In this document: piece by piece, positions 26,993 to 40,423 of the stretch | Position numbering within the stretch: position 1 is the stretch's first letter | How the letters are laid out: each line of letters opens with the position of its first letter | Assembly (NCBI RefSeq): GCF_017980685.1 | Contig: NZ_JACXXO010000003.1 | Coordinates: forward strand, 124,001 to 188,000 | Direction: 5' to 3' | Source: Pseudomonas iridis | GTDB lineage: Bacteria; Pseudomonadota; Gammaproteobacteria; Pseudomonadales; Pseudomonadaceae | DNA length: 64,000 nt | The notes under the pieces: generated by a model | Databases searched by the model: none | Seen by the model: the letters and a program-made list of their open reading frames with translations, nothing else | Told to the model about the DNA's origin: nothing | Position numbers and translations under genes: made by a program

Positions 26993-28192
26993 ATGAAACC
27001 TCATTCACTCAACAACAGCGTGATACTGCTCTTTGCCGTTGCCTGTGGTCTGGCCGTGGGCAATGTGTATTACGCGCAACCGCTGCTCGACGCGATGGCC
27101 GAAGCGTTTGCCATGTCGCCGGCAACCATTGGCATCGTGATTACCCTGACTCAGGTCGGTTACGGCGTCGGCCTGGTATTGCTCGTGCCACTTGGCGATT
27201 TGCTCAACCGACGACGATTGATCGTCGCGCAGACGCTGCTATCGGCCGCGGCGTTACTGATGATCGCGCTGGCACCCAGCAGCCTGTGGCTATTGATCGG
27301 CATGACCTTGACCGGTCTGCTCGCCGTGGTGACGCAAGTATTAGTGGCTTACGCAGCGACGCTGGCGATCCCGGCACAACGCGGGCGCGTGGTTGGCGTG
27401 GTCACCAGCGGCATCGTGGTCGGCATCTTGCTGGCGCGCACGGTCGCAGGCGCCATGGCCGATCTGGCTGGATGGCGGGCAATTTATCTGCTGTCGGCGG
27501 GGCTGACGTTGTTGATCGCTTTACTGCTGTTTCACGTGCTGCCCAAAAAAGAACGTCCGCAGCCGACGACAACCTATCGTGCATTGATCATCTCGGTTTT
27601 TGGTTTGTTCAGGGAAGAGCCCGTTCTGCGTCAGCGCGCAATGCTCGCCCTGCTGACCTTCGCCAGCGCCATGGTGCTGTGGACGCCGATGGTCCTACCG
27701 CTAGCCGCCCCGCCGCTGTCACTTTCCCACAGCGAAATCGGCTTGTTCGGACTTGCCGGGGCCGCAGGCGCGCTGGCCGCCGCCCGCGCCGGTCACTTGG
27801 CTGATCGAGGTCTCGGCCAGTGGGTCAGTGGGTTATCGCTATTGTTGATGCTCGGCTCGTGGCTGCCGATCGCCCTCACCCAATCCTCGCTGTGGGCGTT
27901 GCTACTCGGCGTAGTCACCCTGGATCTGGGCTTACAAGCCGTGCACGTCACCAGCCAAAGCATGATCTACAGCGTGCGCCCGGAAGCACAAAGCCGCCTC
28001 ACCGCCGGTTACATGTTGTTCTATTCGATCGGCAGCGCGCTGGGTTCGATCGGCTCTACCGCCATGTATGCGTGGGCCGGATGGATCGGCGTGTGCTGGC
28101 TGGGCGCGGGCATCAATGCCCTGGCGTTGGCGTACTGGTACCTGACGCTGAGAAGCGGCGCATCTTCACAATGCGCCGCTCAGGCAGGCTAA
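26993..28192 (+). CDS. MFS transporter, drug:H+ antiporter type
   Basis: This 399-residue inner membrane protein has twelve predicted membrane segments and the MFS loop motif GDLLNRRRLI near 70. The N-terminal segment GLAVGNVYYAQPLLDAMA is typical of the YnfM/AraJ-like exporter group. The ATG at 26993 is preceded by AAAAGGAAG. The last four bases overlap the stop of the cytochrome b561 gene on the other strand, so the two genes converge tail to tail. The substrate is not evident. Confidence 0.87.
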   Translation: MKPHSLNNSVILLFAVACGLAVGNVYYAQPLLDAMAEAFAMSPATIGIVITLTQVGYGVGLVLLVPLGDLLNRRRLIVAQTLLSAAALLMIALAPSSLWLLIGMTLTGLLAVVTQVLVAYAATLAIPAQRGRVVGVVTSGIVVGILLARTVAGAMADLAGWRAIYLLSAGLTLLIALLLFHVLPKKERPQPTTTYRALIISVFGLFREEPVLRQRAMLALLTFASAMVLWTPMVLPLAAPPLSLSHSEIGLFGLAGAAGALAAARAGHLADRGLGQWVSGLSLLLMLGSWLPIALTQSSLWALLLGVVTLDLGLQAVHVTSQSMIYSVRPEAQSRLTAGYMLFYSIGSALGSIGSTAMYAWAGWIGVCWLGAGINALALAYWYLTLRSGASSQCAAQAG

Positions 28193-28734
28193 CGGCGATC
28201 ACGCCCGCGCAACATGCTGTCGAGTACCTCGTCGCGGCGCACCCAGCCATGGAACAGCGCCGCCGCCAGGTGCAGCAGCACCGTCAGGAACAACAGATAC
28301 GCCAGATACCCATGGGCCTTGCGCAGCAACGCAAACAACTGCGCATCGGCCGGCACAATTGACGGTAACAGCAGCGAGCTGCTGAGCATCACCGGTTCGC
28401 CCGACGCACTGATCATCGCCCATCCGAGCAACGGCAACACCAGCATCAGCGCATACAGCAATACATGCGAAGCCTTGGCCGCCATCACTTGCCAGTTCGG
28501 CAAATCGGCGGGCAGCGGCGGTTGCCGAGTGGAAAACCGCACAAGAAGACGCACGATCACCAGCGCCAGAATCGCAATACCCAATGGCTTGTGCAGATGG
28601 ATCAGCCATTCATGCCGCTCGGAAACCGAGGTGACCATGCCGGCGCCAATAAACAGCATGGCGATGATCATCAGCGCCATCAGCCAATGCAGCAGCCGCG
28701 CCAGCAGCGCGAAATGAGTCGGTTGAGCGCTCAT
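28189..28734 (-). CDS. Cytochrome b561 family protein
   Basis: This 181-residue inner membrane di-haem cytochrome has four membrane segments and histidines placed as haem ligands: LARLLHWLMAL near 15, HLHKPLGIAILALVIVR near 47, and KAHGYLAYLLFLTVLLHLAAALFHGWV near 140-165. Such proteins pass electrons between the quinone pool and a partner. Its start overlaps the catalase stop (ATGA), so it is coupled to that gene and may supply electrons to the periplasmic catalase-peroxidase. It would be transcribed from the sigma-ECF promoter at 29879-29904. Confidence 0.88.
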   Translation of the reverse strand: MSAQPTHFALLARLLHWLMALMIIAMLFIGAGMVTSVSERHEWLIHLHKPLGIAILALVIVRLLVRFSTRQPPLPADLPNWQVMAAKASHVLLYALMLVLPLLGWAMISASGEPVMLSSSLLLPSIVPADAQLFALLRKAHGYLAYLLFLTVLLHLAAALFHGWVRRDEVLDSMLRGRDRR

Positions 28735-29837
28735 GGACGAGCCTCCTGTTTGGCGGCGGGCAACTGGCTGACTTCGCTGGTGCGTCGCAGGTAGGAATCG
28801 GCGTAACCGGCGGAGCGAGCCGCAAGCAACGGATCGTCGGAACCTTGAATCCCGGCCGGCAGCACCAGCGGATCGTAGTTGATGTCGCGGCACTCGCCGC
28901 TCAGTTGCGGTTGGGTTCGCTCCAGCACCAAGGTGCCGGCGTTCAGAACCTTGCGCCCCTCTGGCCAGGCTTTGCTGGCGTCGTTCACCGGGTCATCGGC
29001 ATTGGCCAAGGTAATGTTCAACTGAAAACGCAACGGTGCGGACGCCAATCGTTGCACCAGGTCTTTCTCCAGAAAATCGCCCCCCTCAGGCGCAGTGGCA
29101 CCCGCAGTGTCCTGCGCCAAAGGTTTCATGCTCCAGCGCACGGCCTGTTTTTTGCCACTGGCGTCCACCAGATAGAACGCGTTGACGCTGTTATACGTTT
29201 CAGTGGCGTAACTGGCGGATGGCTTGGCGGTCTTCACCCACGTCAGAAACGGCACGGCTTCCGGGTGCGCTGCAAAAAAGGCTGGCACCTTGGTCGGATC
29301 CGGTTTGCCAGTGGCCGGATCCGGCGATTGCGCCTGCTGCAACTGATAGAACGCCTCAGGCGTGCCGACCGGGAACACCGGCATGCTGTTCATCCCGGTG
29401 CGCCATTGCTGACCATTGGCCTGAGTGAATCGTAGCGCCAGGCTGCGGATCGGCACGCTGCTGTCCGGTGCATAAGGATTGCCCGCCGGCAGCGCGAAAC
29501 GCCCGACCACTGGCGTGCGCGGATCGTTGAACACCTGCGCGGTGGAGAACACTCGCGCCTCGCCACTGCTCTCAAAATGCCCGATCACGCACACGCCTTT
29601 GGCGTGATTACGGCGAAACCCGGGATGCACGCCGTTGTTCTTCTCCAGCACATCGACCAGCGCTTTGGGCGTCAGACGTTGTGGGTCAAAGGTGCCATTA
29701 ACGTAGGCAAAAGCCCCGGCCACGGCGGCGACTACCACGGCAATGGCGCCAAGACGCAATACCAGGTTCGCGGCACTCAATGGCGGGCGTTGCGGCCCGC
29801 CGGGTGGTGCCGCGTTGGGTGAGCTGCGATCAACCAT
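28731..29837 (-). CDS. Periplasmic catalase-family peroxidase (SrpA-like)
   Basis: This 368-residue protein has an N-terminal membrane anchor or uncleaved signal (about 23-45) and a reduced catalase fold. The haem-site histidine lies in HPGFRRNHAKGVCVIGHF near 80, and FYQLQQAQSPDP and PEAVPFLTWVKTAKPSASYA near 165-210 match the catalase-related peroxidase group. Short enzymes of this group use organic donors or b-type cytochromes and remove H2O2. The ATG at 29837 has GGAG 6 bases upstream. It is coupled to the b561 gene, and its promoter matches that of the ECF sigma gene 4 kb away. Confidence 0.87.
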   Translation of the reverse strand: MVDRSSPNAAPPGGPQRPPLSAANLVLRLGAIAVVVAAVAGAFAYVNGTFDPQRLTPKALVDVLEKNNGVHPGFRRNHAKGVCVIGHFESSGEARVFSTAQVFNDPRTPVVGRFALPAGNPYAPDSSVPIRSLALRFTQANGQQWRTGMNSMPVFPVGTPEAFYQLQQAQSPDPATGKPDPTKVPAFFAAHPEAVPFLTWVKTAKPSASYATETYNSVNAFYLVDASGKKQAVRWSMKPLAQDTAGATAPEGGDFLEKDLVQRLASAPLRFQLNITLANADDPVNDASKAWPEGRKVLNAGTLVLERTQPQLSGECRDINYDPLVLPAGIQGSDDPLLAARSAGYADSYLRRTSEVSQLPAAKQEARP

Positions 29838-29878
29838 GAAAGACTCCAGGGCCATCGGCCATAGGGAAAGGTGCTATG

Positions 29879-29957: not shown

Positions 29958-30722
29958 TTAAATCTGCTCAAAACGTGGCGTGCGCTTCTCCAAAAATGCC
30001 TGCATGCCTTCTTTTTGCCCCGGTGTGGCGAACAAGCCGTGAAACACTCGACGCTCGAACAGGATGCCTTCGCGCAGCCCGACTTCCTGAGCGCGATCCA
30101 CTGCTTCACGCGCGGCCAATGTCGCCGTTCGTGGAAACCCGGCAATCTGCTGCGCAACTGCCAGTGCCTGTTCAAGCAAGTCATCGGCGGCTGTCACGCG
30201 CGACACCAATCCCGCCTGCTCGGCCTCCCGAGCACTGATCGAGCGCCCGGTCAGGATCATGTCCATGGCTTTAGCCCGGCCGATCGCACGTGTCAGACGC
30301 TGGGTTCCGCCCATGCCCGGCATGACGCCGAGCGTGATCTCAGGCAACGCAAATTGCGCTGACTCGGCGGCGATGAGCACATCGCACATCATGGCCAACT
30401 CACAGCCGCCGCCATAGGCATACCCCGCCACTGCAGCCACTTTCGGTGTCTTGAACCCGACGAAGGCATCCCAACCGGCGAAGTAGTCCTGCTCAATCAT
30501 TTCCAGACAGGTCTTTGCGTACATTTCCTTGATATCAGCGCCGGCAGCAAAGTACTCATTCGTACCGGTAATAACGAAACAACCGACACCCGGATCATTG
30601 TCCAGGCCTCTCAGGCAATCGAGCAGTTCACTCATCATTTGCTGGCTCAGGGCATTGCGGGCTCGTGGACGATTGAGCCGAATCAGCACAACGCGTCCGA
30701 GTCTTTCGATCGATATGTTCAT
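29958..30722 (-). CDS. Enoyl-CoA hydratase/isomerase (crotonase) family protein
   Basis: This 254-residue crotonase keeps both catalytic glutamates of true hydratases: one in YAYGGGCELAMMCDVLIAAE near 105 and one in FALPEITLGVMPGMGG near 128. The oxyanion segment GTNEYFAAGADIKEM is near 58. The ATG at 30722 has AAGGAAGG 8 bases upstream; another ATG two codons earlier is too close to it. It is the last of three genes in one direction (adenylation enzyme, membrane flavoprotein, crotonase) with a 52-base gap before it. This company suggests action on a CoA or AMP-activated intermediate of that set rather than in general beta-oxidation. Confidence 0.88.
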   Translation of the reverse strand: MNISIERLGRVVLIRLNRPRARNALSQQMMSELLDCLRGLDNDPGVGCFVITGTNEYFAAGADIKEMYAKTCLEMIEQDYFAGWDAFVGFKTPKVAAVAGYAYGGGCELAMMCDVLIAAESAQFALPEITLGVMPGMGGTQRLTRAIGRAKAMDMILTGRSISAREAEQAGLVSRVTAADDLLEQALAVAQQIAGFPRTATLAAREAVDRAQEVGLREGILFERRVFHGLFATPGQKEGMQAFLEKRTPRFEQI

Positions 30723-30774
30723 GTTCATTGCCTTCCTTGGATTAAGTAACACTAAGAAAAATATCGACGCGGTG

Positions 30775-32109
30775 TCAGGAATCCCAAATAGCGCCGTAAG
30801 CAGGGATACCCCTGGCTTCCATTTCCTCGACCACGCGCTCCGTCAATGTCTGATTGGATATGCAAATCACTGCCTCCGCGCCGAACGACTGCACCGCGCA
30901 ATACGCCAGCTTCACCAGGTCGGGTTTGCCTGACACATCGGTGTCCCAGATCAGTGCATCGGGCTGCGCCGCGAGAATTTCGTCCACCAGTGCATCGCCA
31001 TAAGTGGCTCTGGGACTTCGGGTCGACCAGATCAGGCGGATGGGTATCTGTTTGGCCAACAAGTGCGGCAACACCGGGCCAATTCCGCTGCCGGTGGCGA
31101 TATACACCACTGCTTTGAACAACGTCTCAATGTGCGCCACCCCTGCGGTGGTAATGCCTTTGACCCAGACGTGGGTCGGCGCCTGCTCGATGAAATCGCC
31201 CGTCCAGTCACCCGCCCGGGAAATGATCAGTCGGAAACCGTCCTCCCCCGGCGCAGGAATATTGGCGAACGAATGCCATTCCCACAGTGGGTTGCGACTG
31301 ATCGCAGTGGCTGAACCGGCAAACGGTGTGTGGTGATCGAACCGGGCTATCACCGCGTGGGAGGAAAGCGGCACCACACTGACAGGGACTCGGCGCAACC
31401 GCAGCCACGGCAAGGTAATGCTGAATGTCACCAGCAATAGCATCCAGAACGAGCCAGATCGCAAGAGGGCATCCGTCAGCGCAGCCGTGGGATGTTGCTC
31501 CCTGACAAACACCAGTGTCATCGCCCAGAACATCGCGAGCGCGGCCCAACCGGCGAAGCGGTGGGTGCGCTCGAAAGCATTATGAAAACGCGCGCGAATG
31601 ATCGGCAGCGCCATGATCGCCATCAGTAAAAGCAGCACGAGCAAACCGCCGCTCAGCCCGATCAGGGTCAACGAAACGCCGCCCGGGCCTTCAAATTTCA
31701 GCCAGATCATCGAGCCGAACAACAACGCAAACCAAGCAATGGCTGCCATCGCGCCACCGCTGTGCAGACCACCAAAATGGTAGACCTTGGCCAACGACCG
31801 GCGAATCGCCAGCGGCCAGGACGTCGGCGCCCGGGTGGCCAGCCAGAACAAGCCATTGATGACGTACTGCTGCCGAATCAGTATCGCCATCGACAAGTTC
31901 GCGACGACCAACCCGGACAGCGTTTGCAAAGCAACGCCTGAAGTCGACCACCACTGGCCGATGTTCAAACCGTAAACCAGGGCGGCAATGTTGACGGCGA
32001 ACACCAGCAACACCAGACGGTTGTAATGCGAGAACATCGGCAGCGTTCCCAAACGCCGCCACAATGCGCGCCGGGGCGGTAACACGATCGTCGAATCTGT
32101 GCGGCTCAT
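30775..32109 (-). CDS. Membrane flavoprotein resembling the TmpA / ferric reductase family
   Basis: This 444-residue protein has about six membrane helices in the first 230 residues, then an FAD/NAD-binding half. WEWHSFANIPAPGE near 275 corresponds to the HPFS-like flavin motif, and VVYIATGSGIGPVLPHLLA near 335 is the NAD(P)-binding glycine motif. Histidines in the helices (KVYHFGGLHSG near 110, FERTHRFAGW near 180) could hold haem, but the classical paired HxnH pattern is not plain. Fungal TmpA proteins, proposed to make a developmental signal, share this plan and often join an adenylation domain. Here the adenylation gene overlaps its start (ATGA). The reaction is unknown. The ATG at 32109 was chosen because of that overlap. 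Confidence 0.72.
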   Translation of the reverse strand: MSRTDSTIVLPPRRALWRRLGTLPMFSHYNRLVLLVFAVNIAALVYGLNIGQWWSTSGVALQTLSGLVVANLSMAILIRQQYVINGLFWLATRAPTSWPLAIRRSLAKVYHFGGLHSGGAMAAIAWFALLFGSMIWLKFEGPGGVSLTLIGLSGGLLVLLLLMAIMALPIIRARFHNAFERTHRFAGWAALAMFWAMTLVFVREQHPTAALTDALLRSGSFWMLLLVTFSITLPWLRLRRVPVSVVPLSSHAVIARFDHHTPFAGSATAISRNPLWEWHSFANIPAPGEDGFRLIISRAGDWTGDFIEQAPTHVWVKGITTAGVAHIETLFKAVVYIATGSGIGPVLPHLLAKQIPIRLIWSTRSPRATYGDALVDEILAAQPDALIWDTDVSGKPDLVKLAYCAVQSFGAEAVICISNQTLTERVVEEMEARGIPAYGAIWDS

Positions 32110-33701
32110 GCCTGCACCTGCTGCTCGGCGCGAGCATGTTGTACCTGATGCGCCACGGCCCATTGGAGCAACAAACGCTTGTCGACCTTGCCTCGGGATG
32201 TCAGCGGAATATCATCCACAGCGAGAATCAACGATGGCACGCAATAATAAGCCAGGCGCTCTTCGCAACGTTTTCGCGCTACTTCAACGTCTGTGATGGC
32301 GGGATAGACGAAGGCCACCAGATGGCGACTGTCGAGCTTGAGGGTGACCGCGCGCTCACAGCCCGGCGCAGACTCCAGTGCCGCTGACACCGAGTCGAGT
32401 TCCACCCGAAACCCCCTGACCTTGACCTGATCATCGACACGCCCCAGGTGTTCGAGCTCACCGTCCGCCGTCCAGCGTCCCAGATCCCGGGTACGGAACA
32501 TCAAACGTCCCTGACCCAGAAACGGATCGGGCCGATAGCGTTCGTTGGTCAGTTGCGGATTTCCCAGATAACCGGCGGTCACGCAGTCACCGCCCGCCCA
32601 CATTTCTCCCTGCTCGCCCGGAGCGCAAAGCTGTCCGGCGTCGTCGAGTACATAAACGGTGTTGTTGGGCGTTGGCTTGCCGATCGTCAACGCACCCGCG
32701 CCGCGATAGTGCTGCATGGTATCGACGATGGTGGTCTCGGTCGGCCCACAGGCATTATAAAAAGTGCAAAACGCCGCCCAACGATCCGCCAGCGGTTGTG
32801 GGCAGGGCTCGCCAGCCAGAGCGACCACTTTTACCTGACTGCAACGGGCAGGATCGAGCGTAGCGAGTATCGACGGCGTCGCAATCAGCACGTCACAGCG
32901 CTCGGCGGTTTGCGCGATGTCCTTGCCGCGGATCAACAGCGTTGCTCCGTTGGCCAGACAACCCAGCACTTCCCAGGCCGCCATATCAAAAGCGATGTTC
33001 AGGATCTGGCCGACCTTCAGGCCCGGGCGCATACCAAGATTGCCGGGCTCGGTCAGCAAAATATTGCACACATTACGCTGCGTCACGCGAACGCCATTGG
33101 GCAGTCCGGTTGTACCCGAGGTGAACAGGACAAAGCACAGTGAGTCCGGCGATGACGTCGTGCCACACCTATTCAAGTCGTCGCTGGCGACACTCGGCAC
33201 CTGAATGAATTCATCCAGGTGGATGCACTGTTGATCCGTGGTCAGAGGAATCGCCCGCGCCAGTTCGGACAGTGTCAGTACGACCCGAACCTGGGCGACC
33301 GCCATGATATGACTCAGCTGCGCTGCGGGGGTGATGCCGACGTGTTGAGGAATATAGGCCGCCCCGGTTTTCAGCACGGCCAGCATGCCCACCAGCATCG
33401 GGATCGAACGCTCGACAAACAGCGCCACATGATCGCCCGGACCCACACCCTGCTTGAGCAATGTCGTGGCGAGTCGATTGGCCTGGCGGTTCAACTCGCC
33501 GTAAGTGATGGACTGGCCCTGATATTCGGCCGCGATTGCTTCAGGCCGGCCAGCTGCTTGCAGTTCGATTGCGCGATGGATCAACGTAGCGTCAGGCTGG
33601 ACGCTCGGACCGCAGCCGAAGCGTTGCCATGGGTTGGACTCGACGAACGGATTCGGCTCCGCGTTCGATGTCGACCGGTTATTCATCGCAAATGCTTGCA
33701 T
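32106..33701 (-). CDS. Stand-alone NRPS-like adenylation enzyme (AMP-dependent ligase)
   Basis: This 531-residue protein is a single adenylation domain. The core motifs are in order: LKTGAAYIPQ near 105, FTSGTTGLPNG near 190, FDMAAWEVL near 233, ACGPTETTIVD near 310, TRDLGRWTADGELEHLGRVD near 405, and TSRGKVDKRLL near 505 with the adenylation Lys. The Asp in FDMAAWE corresponds to Asp235 of GrsA, which binds an alpha-amino group, so an amino acid substrate is plausible. There is no carrier-protein, condensation or reductase domain after the ligase. It overlaps the membrane flavoprotein gene by four bases. The ATG at 33701 has AGGGA 7 bases upstream. Confidence 0.84.
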   Translation of the reverse strand: MQAFAMNNRSTSNAEPNPFVESNPWQRFGCGPSVQPDATLIHRAIELQAAGRPEAIAAEYQGQSITYGELNRQANRLATTLLKQGVGPGDHVALFVERSIPMLVGMLAVLKTGAAYIPQHVGITPAAQLSHIMAVAQVRVVLTLSELARAIPLTTDQQCIHLDEFIQVPSVASDDLNRCGTTSSPDSLCFVLFTSGTTGLPNGVRVTQRNVCNILLTEPGNLGMRPGLKVGQILNIAFDMAAWEVLGCLANGATLLIRGKDIAQTAERCDVLIATPSILATLDPARCSQVKVVALAGEPCPQPLADRWAAFCTFYNACGPTETTIVDTMQHYRGAGALTIGKPTPNNTVYVLDDAGQLCAPGEQGEMWAGGDCVTAGYLGNPQLTNERYRPDPFLGQGRLMFRTRDLGRWTADGELEHLGRVDDQVKVRGFRVELDSVSAALESAPGCERAVTLKLDSRHLVAFVYPAITDVEVARKRCEERLAYYCVPSLILAVDDIPLTSRGKVDKRLLLQWAVAHQVQHARAEQQVQA

Positions 33702-33887
33702 GGGATTTCCCTTTCCTTTTCTCAACGATTTATGTTTTCACGTTCGGCTCCGCATCCTTGGGTTGCGCCGATAGCCAACGTGATTGACAAATGGGTTGAG
33801 CAGGGAAAGTTGAATCCATTACACGGCTTACAAATCGCAGCGAACTATCCTACGAAGAAGGGAGAAAAAATTTTCAAACCGGCGGAT

Positions 33888-33913
33888 GGAATAACCATCC
33901 TTGAGGGACGTCT
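33888..33913 (+). promoter_or_regulatory. Autoregulated ECF-sigma promoter
   Basis: GGAATAA (33888-33894), 14 bases, then CGTCT (33909-33913), 42 bases before the sigma gene start. It equals the promoter of the catalase operon at 29879-29904 in both elements and spacing, while the spacer sequences differ. Confidence 0.75.
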
Positions 33914-33955
33914 TTCTTCTCAACATCGCCTTTCGGCAAAGAGCAGCCCCTCGCC

Positions 33956-34462
33956 ATGAACGAGCTAGACGAACAACTGCGTGAACTGATCCCCAGGCTA
34001 CGGCGCTTCGCCGTTTCGTTGACGCGCAACAGCAGCAGCGCCGACGATCTGGTGCAGGCGTGCCTTGAGCGGGCCCTGTCGAGTTGGGGCGGCAAGCGCG
34101 CTGACGGTGATCTGCGGGCCTGGCTGTTTTCGATCCTCTACCGGCAGTTTCTCGATGCCCATCGCCGCTCGCGCCGTCACGCGCGGATGCTCGAGTTTTT
34201 CACCGGTCGCGACGATGCCGAACCGTCGACCGAGCGCACCGTGATCGCCCAATCGACCCTGCAAGCGTTCGACCGCCTGCCCAGCGAACAGCGGGCGCTG
34301 CTGCTGATGGTCTCGGTTGAGGGCCTTTCCTATAAAGAGGTCGCCGAGATTCTCGACACCCCGATCGGCACCGTGATGTCGCGCCTGTCCCGCGCCCGCC
34401 AGGCTTTGCGCCAACTCAGCGACGGCGAAATCATCAGCCCTTCTTTGCGGATACTCAAATGA
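33956..34462 (+). CDS. ECF-family RNA polymerase sigma factor
   Basis: This 168-residue sigma factor contains region 2 (SADDLVQACLERALSSWGGK about 23-42, with DLRAWLFSILYRQFLD for promoter melting) and region 4 (LPSEQRALLLMVSVEGLSYKEVAEILDTPIGTVMSRLSRAR about 103-145). No C-terminal extension is present. The anti-sigma gene overlaps its stop (ATGA). The upstream promoter matches that of the catalase-b561 operon, so the factor probably controls itself and the peroxidase set, perhaps in answer to peroxide or singlet oxygen. Exact ECF group not assigned; a link of catalase and b561 genes with one ECF group (ECF26) is known to me, but membership is unverified. Confidence 0.9.
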   Translation: MNELDEQLRELIPRLRRFAVSLTRNSSSADDLVQACLERALSSWGGKRADGDLRAWLFSILYRQFLDAHRRSRRHARMLEFFTGRDDAEPSTERTVIAQSTLQAFDRLPSEQRALLLMVSVEGLSYKEVAEILDTPIGTVMSRLSRARQALRQLSDGEIISPSLRILK

Positions 34463-35214
34463 TCAGCATGCCTCCCAGCGAGCGTGACCTGCACGCCTAC
34501 GTCGATCACCAACTCAGCGACGCCGACCGGCGCGTGCTGGAAACCTGGCTGGCCAGCCATCCGGACGAAGCCGCACAGGTTCGTGGCTGGCAACAGGACG
34601 CCCAGCAACTGCGTGCGGCACTGAGCGGCGCATTGCAGCAACCGGCCAATCCGGCACTTGATCCGGCGATGATTCGTCTGCGCCGCCAGCGTCAGTCGCG
34701 CCGCCATCTGGCCAGCGCGGCGGTGCTACTGATCGCGGTGAGCGTCGGTGGTTTCAGCGGTTGGCAGGCACGGGAAATGACCCTCGTGCGAGCCTCCGCG
34801 TTACCAATGACCGACGCCCTGCTGGCCTATCGGTTGATTGCCCAGCAAGGCATGCTGCCCGCGGATTACAAGGTCGATGGTGCTGGCGACATGCAGCGCT
34901 GGCTTGATCGTTATTTCACTCAGGTCAGTCGCTTGCCAGATTTGACGGCGGCGGGGTTTGAGCCCGTCAGCGGGCGCTTGCTGAGTACCGATGAAGGGCC
35001 GGCGGCGATGGTGATGTATGAAGATGCGAGTGGGCACAAGGTCAGTTTTTATGTGCGACCGCCTGGGCCAAAAAACACCTTCTTGCCCAGAGGCAGTCGT
35101 AGTGATGGGGATTTGCAGGCGGACTACTGGTCAGGCGGTGGTTACAACTATGCGATGGTCAGCCCGGTTGATACGCCGGCCGCGCCACTGCTCAAGCAAT
35201 CGCTGCAATTCTGA
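34459..35214 (+). CDS. Membrane anti-sigma factor
   Basis: This 251-residue protein has a cytoplasmic anti-sigma part (ERDLHAYVDHQLSDADRRVL near 7-27), one membrane helix (about 93-110) and a periplasmic domain of about 140 residues. It overlaps the sigma gene by four bases, which is the normal way of keeping the two in balance. The zinc-binding HxxxCxxC motif of ZAS anti-sigma factors is absent, so sensing is not by a zinc-thiol switch and more likely goes through the periplasmic part. Confidence 0.87.
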   Translation: MISMPPSERDLHAYVDHQLSDADRRVLETWLASHPDEAAQVRGWQQDAQQLRAALSGALQQPANPALDPAMIRLRRQRQSRRHLASAAVLLIAVSVGGFSGWQAREMTLVRASALPMTDALLAYRLIAQQGMLPADYKVDGAGDMQRWLDRYFTQVSRLPDLTAAGFEPVSGRLLSTDEGPAAMVMYEDASGHKVSFYVRPPGPKNTFLPRGSRSDGDLQADYWSGGGYNYAMVSPVDTPAAPLLKQSLQF

Positions 35215-39019: not shown

Positions 39020-40423
39020 ATGCTCAATGACAAGGAAAGTCCGTTTACCCTCACCCTGACCGACAGTGGATTATGCCTGCCGGTGGTGCGTTTCAATGGC
39101 GAGGAAGCGCTCAACCAACGCTATCGTTTCGACATCGAACTGATCGGCCTGGCCCCCGCCGTGACGCCGGGCACACTGGTGCAGCAACCGGTATTTCTGC
39201 GTCTGGATGACCATCACGGCATTCACGGCATGATCGACAGTGCCAGTTGCGAACATCGCGGAGCGCACCGCATCGGCTATCGACTGATCGTGGTCCCGGC
39301 GCTGCAACGGATGGCGCAGCCGAGCAAACGTCGGGTGTTCGTGCAACTGAGCGTGCCGCAGATTCTTGAACGGTTGCTCGCTGACAACGCCCTGCCGGCC
39401 GACAGCTACCGAATTGAAATGACCGTGGGCCAGTATCCGGCACGTCCATTTTGCGTGCAGTTCGAGGAAAGCGATCTGGCGCTGCTACACAGACTTTGAG
39501 AAGAAGAAGGCATCCACTATCACTTCGAGCACAGCACCGACGGGCATGTTGTCGTGTTCGCCGATGACAGCCTGAGTCTGCCGCAAGAACCGTCACTGGT
39601 GCCGTTCATGGAGGATGAACAAGCGTCCTCGCCCTGTGTCAGCTCGTTGTACCAGAACCACCACGCCGCCCCCATCCCGACGCTGCACGCCGTGCGCAAT
39701 CGAGGGCTACAGACTGCCGACGGGGATGCGGCCAATCAGCCCCCGTCAAAACCGTCGCTGCCGATCCCTTCGCCGCAGCAACGCCACAGTGAACAGCGCA
39801 GTCGTCGCCATCTGGAACGACAACGTTGCCAACATCGTTCAATCAATGGCCGCAGTAACTGCGTCGGTTTGCTCAGCGGGCACTTGTTGCAAGTGACGGA
39901 ACATCCCATCAGCCAGTTCAACGAACAATGGCGGATCACCACCCTGCGCCATCACGGGCAACACCCATCGATTCTGGACCCGGCAGCGACGGTGCACCGT
40001 TACTACAACGATTTCACCGCCCAACCGTGGTCTACCGACTATCGCCCGCCACTTCAGCAACCGCGCCCGAGCATTGCGGGCTATCACCTGGCGCAAGTAC
40101 TGGGAACACCAGGGCAACCCGTGCGGCTCGATGCGCAAGGGCGGATCGCCGTCAGGTTGTGGCCATCGCAATCGCCCCCCGTCGCCGACACCGACACCGA
40201 AGCCATCTGGCTACCCATCGCCATGCCCCGGGCCAACGGTCGAATCGCCCCTGATGAATTGCCCAGCGTGGGCAGTGAAGTGTGGGTGAGTTTTCTCGAC
40301 AGTGATCCGGACCGGCCGATCCTGTGCCTGGGCAACACACGCAATCCCACACCCCGCGAAACTCCGTCCGCGACTGACAGCAGTCTGTTGCTCGATTGGC
40401 TGCTCAACGGAACCCACCTGTGA
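39020..40423 (+). pseudogene. vgrG: vgrG (type VI secretion tip protein) with in-frame stop
   Basis: The frame is that of a 467-residue VgrG, broken by TGA at 39497-39499 (codon 160). The reading frame is unchanged across it: LALLHRL, stop, EEEGIHYHFEHSTDGH, the usual VgrG segment. The first part is the gp27-like domain (FTLTLTDSGLCLPVVRFNGE at the start). The later part has the gp5-like OB fold (AQGRIAVRLWPSQS, then LPSVGSEVWVSFLDSDPDRP near 430). The protein ends soon after the OB fold, without the long needle or an effector extension. An internal GTG at 39554 could start the second half, but lacks a good Shine-Dalgarno. No other type VI genes adjoin it. Confidence 0.82.

Follow-up and report, generated by a model that had tools for sequence, protein, structure and literature searches.

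A conserved bacterial cassette of a stand-alone adenylation domain, a TmpA-like membrane flavoprotein and a crotonase

A 64,000-nucleotide stretch of the Pseudomonas iridis genome (hereafter the window; contig NZ_JACXXO010000003.1 of an assembly of 5.93 Mb in 46 contigs) carries three adjacent reverse-strand genes that we found to be a real conserved cassette and one evolutionary unit. The first gene (32106..33701) encodes a stand-alone adenylation (A) domain of the nonribosomal peptide synthetase (NRPS) type (translation of 531 aa; PF00501, 230.4 bits). It is followed by the gene for a TmpA-like membrane flavoprotein (30775..32109; 444 aa), whose AlphaFold2 model has an NADPH-oxidase fold and whose translation contains TGSGIGP and a C-terminal WDS, and by the gene for a crotonase of the ECHS1/EchA8 type (29958..30722; 254 aa; PF00378, 254.5 bits). 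An earlier interpretation of the same DNA made without database searches (the sequence-only reading) had described three genes in one direction, and the coordinates bear out both the four-base overlap of the first two (ATGA, 32106-32109) and the 52-base spacing between the flavoprotein and crotonase genes. Chance open reading frames are ruled out because the trio is conserved across five phyla. We consider it about an even chance that the trio is a self-contained, horizontally shared biosynthetic cassette acting on one hydrophobic amino acid. Searches of open-access literature turned up no paper on the bacterial trio.

Occurrence of the cassette in bacterial genomes

A genome scan with a seven-sequence alignment returned 394 relatives, and the best 80 of these 394 were taken as loci, distributed over Pseudomonadota (46), Bacteroidota (18), Actinomycetota (9), Chloroflexota (6) and Cyanobacteriota (1). 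All 80 have an A domain tied to the flavoprotein: its gene lies directly upstream on the same strand in 65, and the two form a single protein in 15; the A domains of loci L048 and L055 are cut by contig ends. The 15 fusions, with lengths of 989-1019 aa, occur in Bacteroidota and in Caballeronia, and two Micromonospora-family genomes have fused-type open frames as well, 1000 and 1056 aa long. An intact crotonase gene lies 11-235 bases downstream of the flavoprotein gene in 70 of the 80 loci, and the ten exceptions comprise a contig end (L099), a large internal deletion (L024), seven Pseudomonas loci without the gene and the Saprospiraceae locus L050. The sequence-only reading had raised co-occurrence of the three genes across bacteria, which these counts support; neither of the contrary outcomes that it had named, a match of the membrane protein to a well-studied reductase with known partners and separation of the genes, occurred. 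Sixteen loci found through the flavoprotein in further genomes (L185 and L186, found via the crotonase, are not counted) have an A domain in 16/16 cases and a crotonase in 15/16. Five of them are places within the 80, and the 11 new ones have an A domain in 11/11 and a crotonase in 10/11. For the first six relatives, four of which belong to this further set, the corresponding counts are 6/6 and 4/6.

The distribution of the cassette is patchy. Strong matches (E < 1e-100, the window's own genome counted in the sets that contain it) were obtained in 17 of 199 Pseudomonas genomes, 7 of 293 genomes sampled across the order and 4 of 398 across the phylum, as well as in 14 of 121 genomes from the family of the Micromonospora locus L061, and weak matches only were seen in a further 3, 3, 2 and 12 genomes of these sets, respectively. 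Pairwise distances of the three proteins correlate with one another (Spearman 0.57-0.60 over 55 loci, with Pseudomonas rows thinned to every fourth; 0/999 permutations). In Pseudomonas anatoliensis (L024, 7292-10570) the trio looks to be decaying: the pocket aspartate of the A domain has been replaced (D235 to G) and most of the crotonase is deleted, with the A domain and flavoprotein still approximately 95% identical to those of the window. Such a joint loss would be expected if the genes serve one purpose. The closest relative of the window flavoprotein among the matches listed is likewise from P. anatoliensis (95%).

Flavoprotein homologues were also found on plasmids. One, on a Pantoea piersonii plasmid (L104, 7932-9287; 50%), keeps all landmark residues tested. 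Two distant homologues on Calothrix plasmids (L105:6475-7767 and L106:11962-13254; 28-30%) keep the C-terminal WDS and have no A domain or crotonase nearby; an HlyD-like gene comes next after the first of them, and a third distant homologue is located on a Fischerella plasmid. Separately, a 64.5% homologue was observed at positions 1172-2431 of MT838715.1, a 4.9-kb record from human faeces labelled 'Bacteriophage sp.', for which bacterial contamination seems likely.

The three proteins

The A domain scores above the cut-off of TIGR01733 in the NCBIfam scan (334.6 against 317.4 bits) and consists of a single AMP-binding domain with the amino-acid-binding motif FDMAAWE. Pfam and NCBIfam scans of the three trio proteins found no carrier or condensation domain, in agreement with the lone, carrier-free A domain described from the sequence, and in the four fusions scanned (of 15 known), where the A domain continues into the flavoprotein, neither domain was detected. 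The pocket code of the window A domain is DMWIAAAIVK, read at positions mapped via motifs onto what we take to be PheA numbering. The pattern DMWIAA[A/S/G/C]I[V/I]K recurs in 75 of 85 aligned A-domain rows, which represent 82 distinct places (L018-L020 duplicate L025, L059 and L058) and omit the truncated A domains of L048 and L055; each of the remaining ten rows deviates at one position (299 I in seven, 278 V in two and 235 G in one). D235 is kept in 84/85 rows, and M236, W239, A301, I330 and K517 in 85/85. Eight further AMP-binding enzymes from this genome have pocket letters that differ from those of the trio, and three of the eight keep the aspartate. One of these three has the code DFWNVGMVHK, which we take to be near the threonine code, and this resemblance supports the pocket mapping. 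Because the trio pocket is hydrophobic and PheA-like, the substrate of the A domain is likely to be a medium-sized or large hydrophobic amino acid.

The A domain might instead load its amino acid in trans onto a distant NRPS or carrier, with the other two proteins tailoring it. One study (PMC2823734) mentions the stand-alone, in-trans A domains VibE, MxcE and YbtE for this clade, and condensation domains are present in 19 of 24 trio genomes. The other five genomes, for which completeness is not stated, show no condensation domain, so that an NRPS partner is not generally needed, and the carrier-free fusions also speak against such a role. Precursor supply was rejected as a general function on account of these five genomes, and we regard it as quite unlikely.

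Neither Pfam nor NCBIfam assigns the flavoprotein to a family at E 0.001, and a phmmer search of the Protein Data Bank gave a best E of only 0.24. Its AlphaFold2 model (pLDDT 88.7, pTM 0.85) has a helical N-terminal part and a C-terminal part resembling reductase domains that bind flavin adenine dinucleotide (FAD) and NAD(P), and its whole length is matched by NADPH oxidases (NOX), with Z 23.0 for SpNOX across 363 residues at 14% identity and Z 22.4 for NOX2 across 404, a fold match also seen with Foldseek. The predicted order of domains is that of NOX enzymes, with the FAD and NAD(P) domains coming after a bundle of transmembrane helices. A profile of 52 relatives gave a weak NOX2 alignment (E 0.018) located at the FAD motif, with WHSFAN... 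opposite LEWHPFT... and GDWT shared by the two, and GSGIGP and the terminal WDS are invariant in 52/52 relatives. A membrane flavoprotein with helices and FAD and NAD(P) motifs had been read from the sequence and is upheld by these results; the accompanying suggestion that the cassette activates and then reduces an acid needs qualifying, the predicted fold being that of NADPH oxidases, which normally pass electrons to oxygen or iron. An acyl-CoA-dehydrogenase-type flavoenzyme was rejected because the model matches NADPH oxidases along its length. The protein represents a flavoprotein family of predicted NADPH-oxidase fold that appears tied to amino-acid activation and not to host defence or iron uptake.

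Eight residues of the flavoprotein, H111, H116, H176, H183, H251, H279, H349 and W126, are invariant in 52/52 relatives. Two NOX-type haem His pairs spaced 13-14 residues apart were not found as a conserved feature of the 52 sequences, in which His occurs at positions 125, 130, 189, 190, 196 and 197 in 0, 1, 0, 0, 0 and 5 cases, respectively. Since the second His 13-14 residues on is absent or rare, the usual transmembrane two-haem wire is, to judge from this alignment, not a conserved feature of the flavoprotein. We take H101 and H209 of NOX2 to be the counterparts of H111 and H183, which could form one remaining haem pair. That assignment is weakened because H183 aligns with H209 at just 2.9 bits and because H111 is lost in the distant Calothrix proteins, which keep H116, H176 and H183 and have Y or L at 111. 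H116 may be an alternative haem partner, or the flavoprotein may be haem-free.

Among solved structures the crotonase best matches EchA8 (E 6.7e-89), with ECHS1, the mitochondrial enoyl-CoA hydratase, lower in the list, and its 358.2 bits lie below the cut-off (396) of the best NCBIfam model. Both catalytic glutamates of hydratases are retained, as had been noted earlier, at Glu108 and Glu128, presumably the equivalents of Glu144 and Glu164 of the rat enzyme. In a tree of 114 crotonases a single branch (100/96 support, one change) splits 62 cassette crotonases from 52 others, and it was recovered in 100% of 200 bootstrap trees, the bootstrap being not fully settled. The cassette set was taken from 83 loci (three without crotonase, three too short, identical sequences used once), 12 of 19 Pseudomonas rows were omitted (74 trio rows reduced to 62), and EchA8 and ECHS1 are not among the sequences of the tree. 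The cassette crotonase is also the top match to that of the window in 17 of 18 cassette genomes, and in a Rhizobiaceae genome a non-cassette crotonase scores slightly above the cassette one.

Neighbouring genes

In Pseudomonas the trio sits in a gap between a divergent extracytoplasmic function (ECF) sigma gene and a pair of catalase-like and cytochrome b561 genes. In the window this locus, which includes a probable anti-sigma gene with the ECF sigma gene, occupies 28189-29855 and 33956-35214, with the trio separating the two parts. Searches located the ECF gene in 35 of 59 Pseudomonas genomes; 27 of the 30 ECF loci examined have the catalase-like gene directly adjoining, and three (the window's own, G011 and G004) have an A domain there instead. 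The catalase-like and cytochrome b561 genes accompany 27/27 Pseudomonas trio loci and the ECF gene 25/27. Because 27 of 30 ECF loci are without the trio, the ECF sigma, catalase-like and cytochrome b561 genes are bystanders, and they were rejected as cassette members. Comparison with these empty sites marks the segment 33702..33955 (no strand assigned), which separates the A-domain gene from the divergent ECF gene, as the upstream, putative promoter region of the trio. It contains GGTTATTCCA close to its ECF side, and the unsplit loci inspected show facing GGTTATTCCA and GGAATAA motifs. No sigma-70-type promoter-like site was found in a consensus scan of 33702..33955, and a scan for promoters and terminators gave no excess over shuffled sequences.

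The catalase-like neighbour bears on the possibility that the trio is a redox or reactive oxygen species (ROS) module, in which the NADPH-oxidase relative would make superoxide or control redox state and be gated by a small effector from the A domain and crotonase. Such a role would suit the full-length NOX fold of the model and the catalase-like gene adjoining the trio in 27/27 Pseudomonas loci, and TmpL mutants of Alternaria and Aspergillus are described (PMC2766074) as disturbed in ROS homeostasis. It is unlikely all the same: the catalase locus without the trio in 27/30 Pseudomonas loci points to an incidental neighbour, a second pair of haem-ligand histidines spaced as in NOX was not found, and an amino-acid pocket conserved across phyla favours a made product.

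The flanks were sampled with five genera skipped for too little flank. In Bacteroidota the proteins following the crotonase form a cluster of 18 loci in 10 genera, the representative of which (L084:11274-12005) is a DUF6733 protein (PF20507). This family was matched by 9 of the 122 nearest flanking proteins, and the trio may provide a context for it. A Gcw_chp protein is encoded after the trio in Aliikangiella and Pleionea. A response regulator and/or histidine kinase adjoins the trio on varying sides and strands in eight loci (L047, L058, L100, L102, L103, L061, L092 and L039), as checked singly with Pfam in L047, L061, L102 and L103 and by similarity or eye in the rest. Among the 122 nearest flanking proteins, 8 matched HATPase_c and 8 Response_reg, compared with 3 each among 104 more distant ones; HisKA (8) and Trans_reg_C (9) reach at most 2 each in the more distant set, below the rows listed for it. 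This enrichment of two-component genes beside the trio is modest and suggestive only.

The flanks also speak to a catabolic role, in which ligase, flavoenzyme and enoyl-CoA hydratase would form a route like beta-oxidation for an amino or aromatic acid used as a nutrient. The order ligase, flavoprotein, hydratase does resemble acyl-CoA beta-oxidation, the crotonase is near EchA8, and a thiolase-type gene was recognised by eye upstream of the Chloroflexi locus L074. Neither thiolase nor hydroxyacyl-CoA dehydrogenase was found among the 25 most frequent families of the 122 flanking proteins, however, the flavoprotein model fits NADPH oxidases and FAD/NAD(P) reductases, and the distribution is patchy (17 strong matches in 199 Pseudomonas genomes), all of which makes a catabolic cassette very unlikely.

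Two further features of the window were noted by eye. The segment 36544-37968 encodes predicted leucine-rich repeats followed by a protein-kinase-like part, and two successive frames at 39020-40423 resemble VgrG-type pieces, possibly of a broken gene.

Proposed function and known counterparts

The cassette probably serves to make an amino-acid-derived small molecule. Beyond this, we infer a product, a redox step and a series of reactions in which the A domain would adenylate a single hydrophobic alpha-amino acid of medium or large size and hand it to coenzyme A (CoA), a transfer suggested by the lack of a carrier domain and by the CoA-thioester family to which the crotonase belongs. NAD(P)H would then supply electrons that reach the activated amino acid or a membrane partner via FAD and no more than one haem, placed near the cytosolic face, and the crotonase would hydrate or isomerise the resulting enoyl-type CoA thioester. 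A small product might finally leave the cell and act as a signal or defence metabolite, comparable to the signal production proposed for fungal TmpB in PMC4804170.

Several points weigh against this biosynthetic reading. The 80 loci are a biased sample, as conserved peptides were used to find them, and the distance correlation among the three proteins is uncorrected for species phylogeny. Eight loci have room for a crotonase and lack one (the seven Pseudomonas loci and L050, which has a 34%-identical one only), and the Pantoea piersonii plasmid flavoprotein is accompanied by neither A domain nor crotonase across the 17 kb examined, so some loci can do without a crotonase in cis. The condensation domains in 19 of 24 trio genomes count on the same side. 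Transfer to CoA by an NRPS-type A domain is assumed. NADPH oxidases normally pass electrons outward to oxygen or iron, and a desaturation feeding a hydratase would run in the opposite redox direction. Kinship with the fungal proteins considered below is set by architecture, motifs and a published tree, not by sequence.

A wider proposal, that at least five bacterial phyla and filamentous fungi share one cassette, with a NOX-like flavoprotein of one haem or none between A domain and crotonase, making the same amino-acid-derived diffusible compound, strikes us as rather improbable. If it were true, bacteria would also make the molecule that serves Aspergillus as its TmpB conidiation signal, which would perhaps be an inter-kingdom signal. 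In Pseudomonas, which is easy to grow, the set is a compact one of three genes and the A-domain pocket hardly varies; substrate and product can therefore be tested directly, and the old question of the fungal developmental signal could be studied in such bacteria. The trio also adds an NADPH-oxidase-fold flavoprotein family to those without a Pfam or NCBIfam match.

The flavoprotein model shares its fold over the full length with the NADPH oxidases SpNOX and NOX2, of the superfamily that also includes ferric reductases; it differs from SpNOX in sequence (14% identity), and from SpNOX and NOX2 in its lack of the two 13-14-spaced His pairs and in its own invariant W126 and C-terminal WDS. The window crotonase has family membership and both catalytic glutamates in common with ECHS1 and Mycobacterium tuberculosis EchA8, and the cassette crotonases form a clade separate from the other crotonases compared. 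Unlike a nonribosomal peptide synthetase, the trio itself has no carrier or condensation domains, a separate partner being possible in the 19 genomes noted above.

The nearest described systems are fungal. TmpB of Aspergillus nidulans appears in PMC4804170 as a 989-aa protein of an A domain and a TmpA part, with the A-domain residues D, W, G, I and K, and with an enoyl-CoA hydratase/isomerase gene adjoining tmpB. ChNPS12 is reported to combine an A domain with a ferric-reductase-like domain, and nested in its clade are single A domains from the bacteria Hahella and Salinispora (PMC2823734). TmpL, known from Alternaria brassicicola and Aspergillus fumigatus, carries a GSGIGP motif and has a role in ROS balance and virulence (PMC2766074). 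TmpA, TmpB and TmpL influence sporulation, and TmpL also influences virulence and redox balance in two fungal pathogens. Like these fungal proteins, the bacterial trio combines a single carrier-free A domain of the NRPS type with a membrane oxidoreductase of the FAD/NAD(P) kind that bears GSGIGP. The PheA-like D, W, I and K of the residues listed for TmpB are present in the trio, and the bacterial fusions (989-1019 aa) match TmpB in size. They differ in that 65 of 80 bacterial loci have two separate genes in place of the single fungal protein, and in the crotonase gene found 11-235 bases downstream in 70 of 80 loci. The sequence-only reading had taken the trio for a bacterial two-protein form of the TmpA fusion with an added crotonase. 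Its link to the fungal architecture stands, the restriction to two proteins does not, since a fused TmpB-like form also exists in bacteria, and the crotonase is probably no bacterial addition, given the hydratase gene that PMC4804170 places beside tmpB. By architecture, motifs and the published tree, all three parts of the bacterial trio can be matched to described fungal counterparts.

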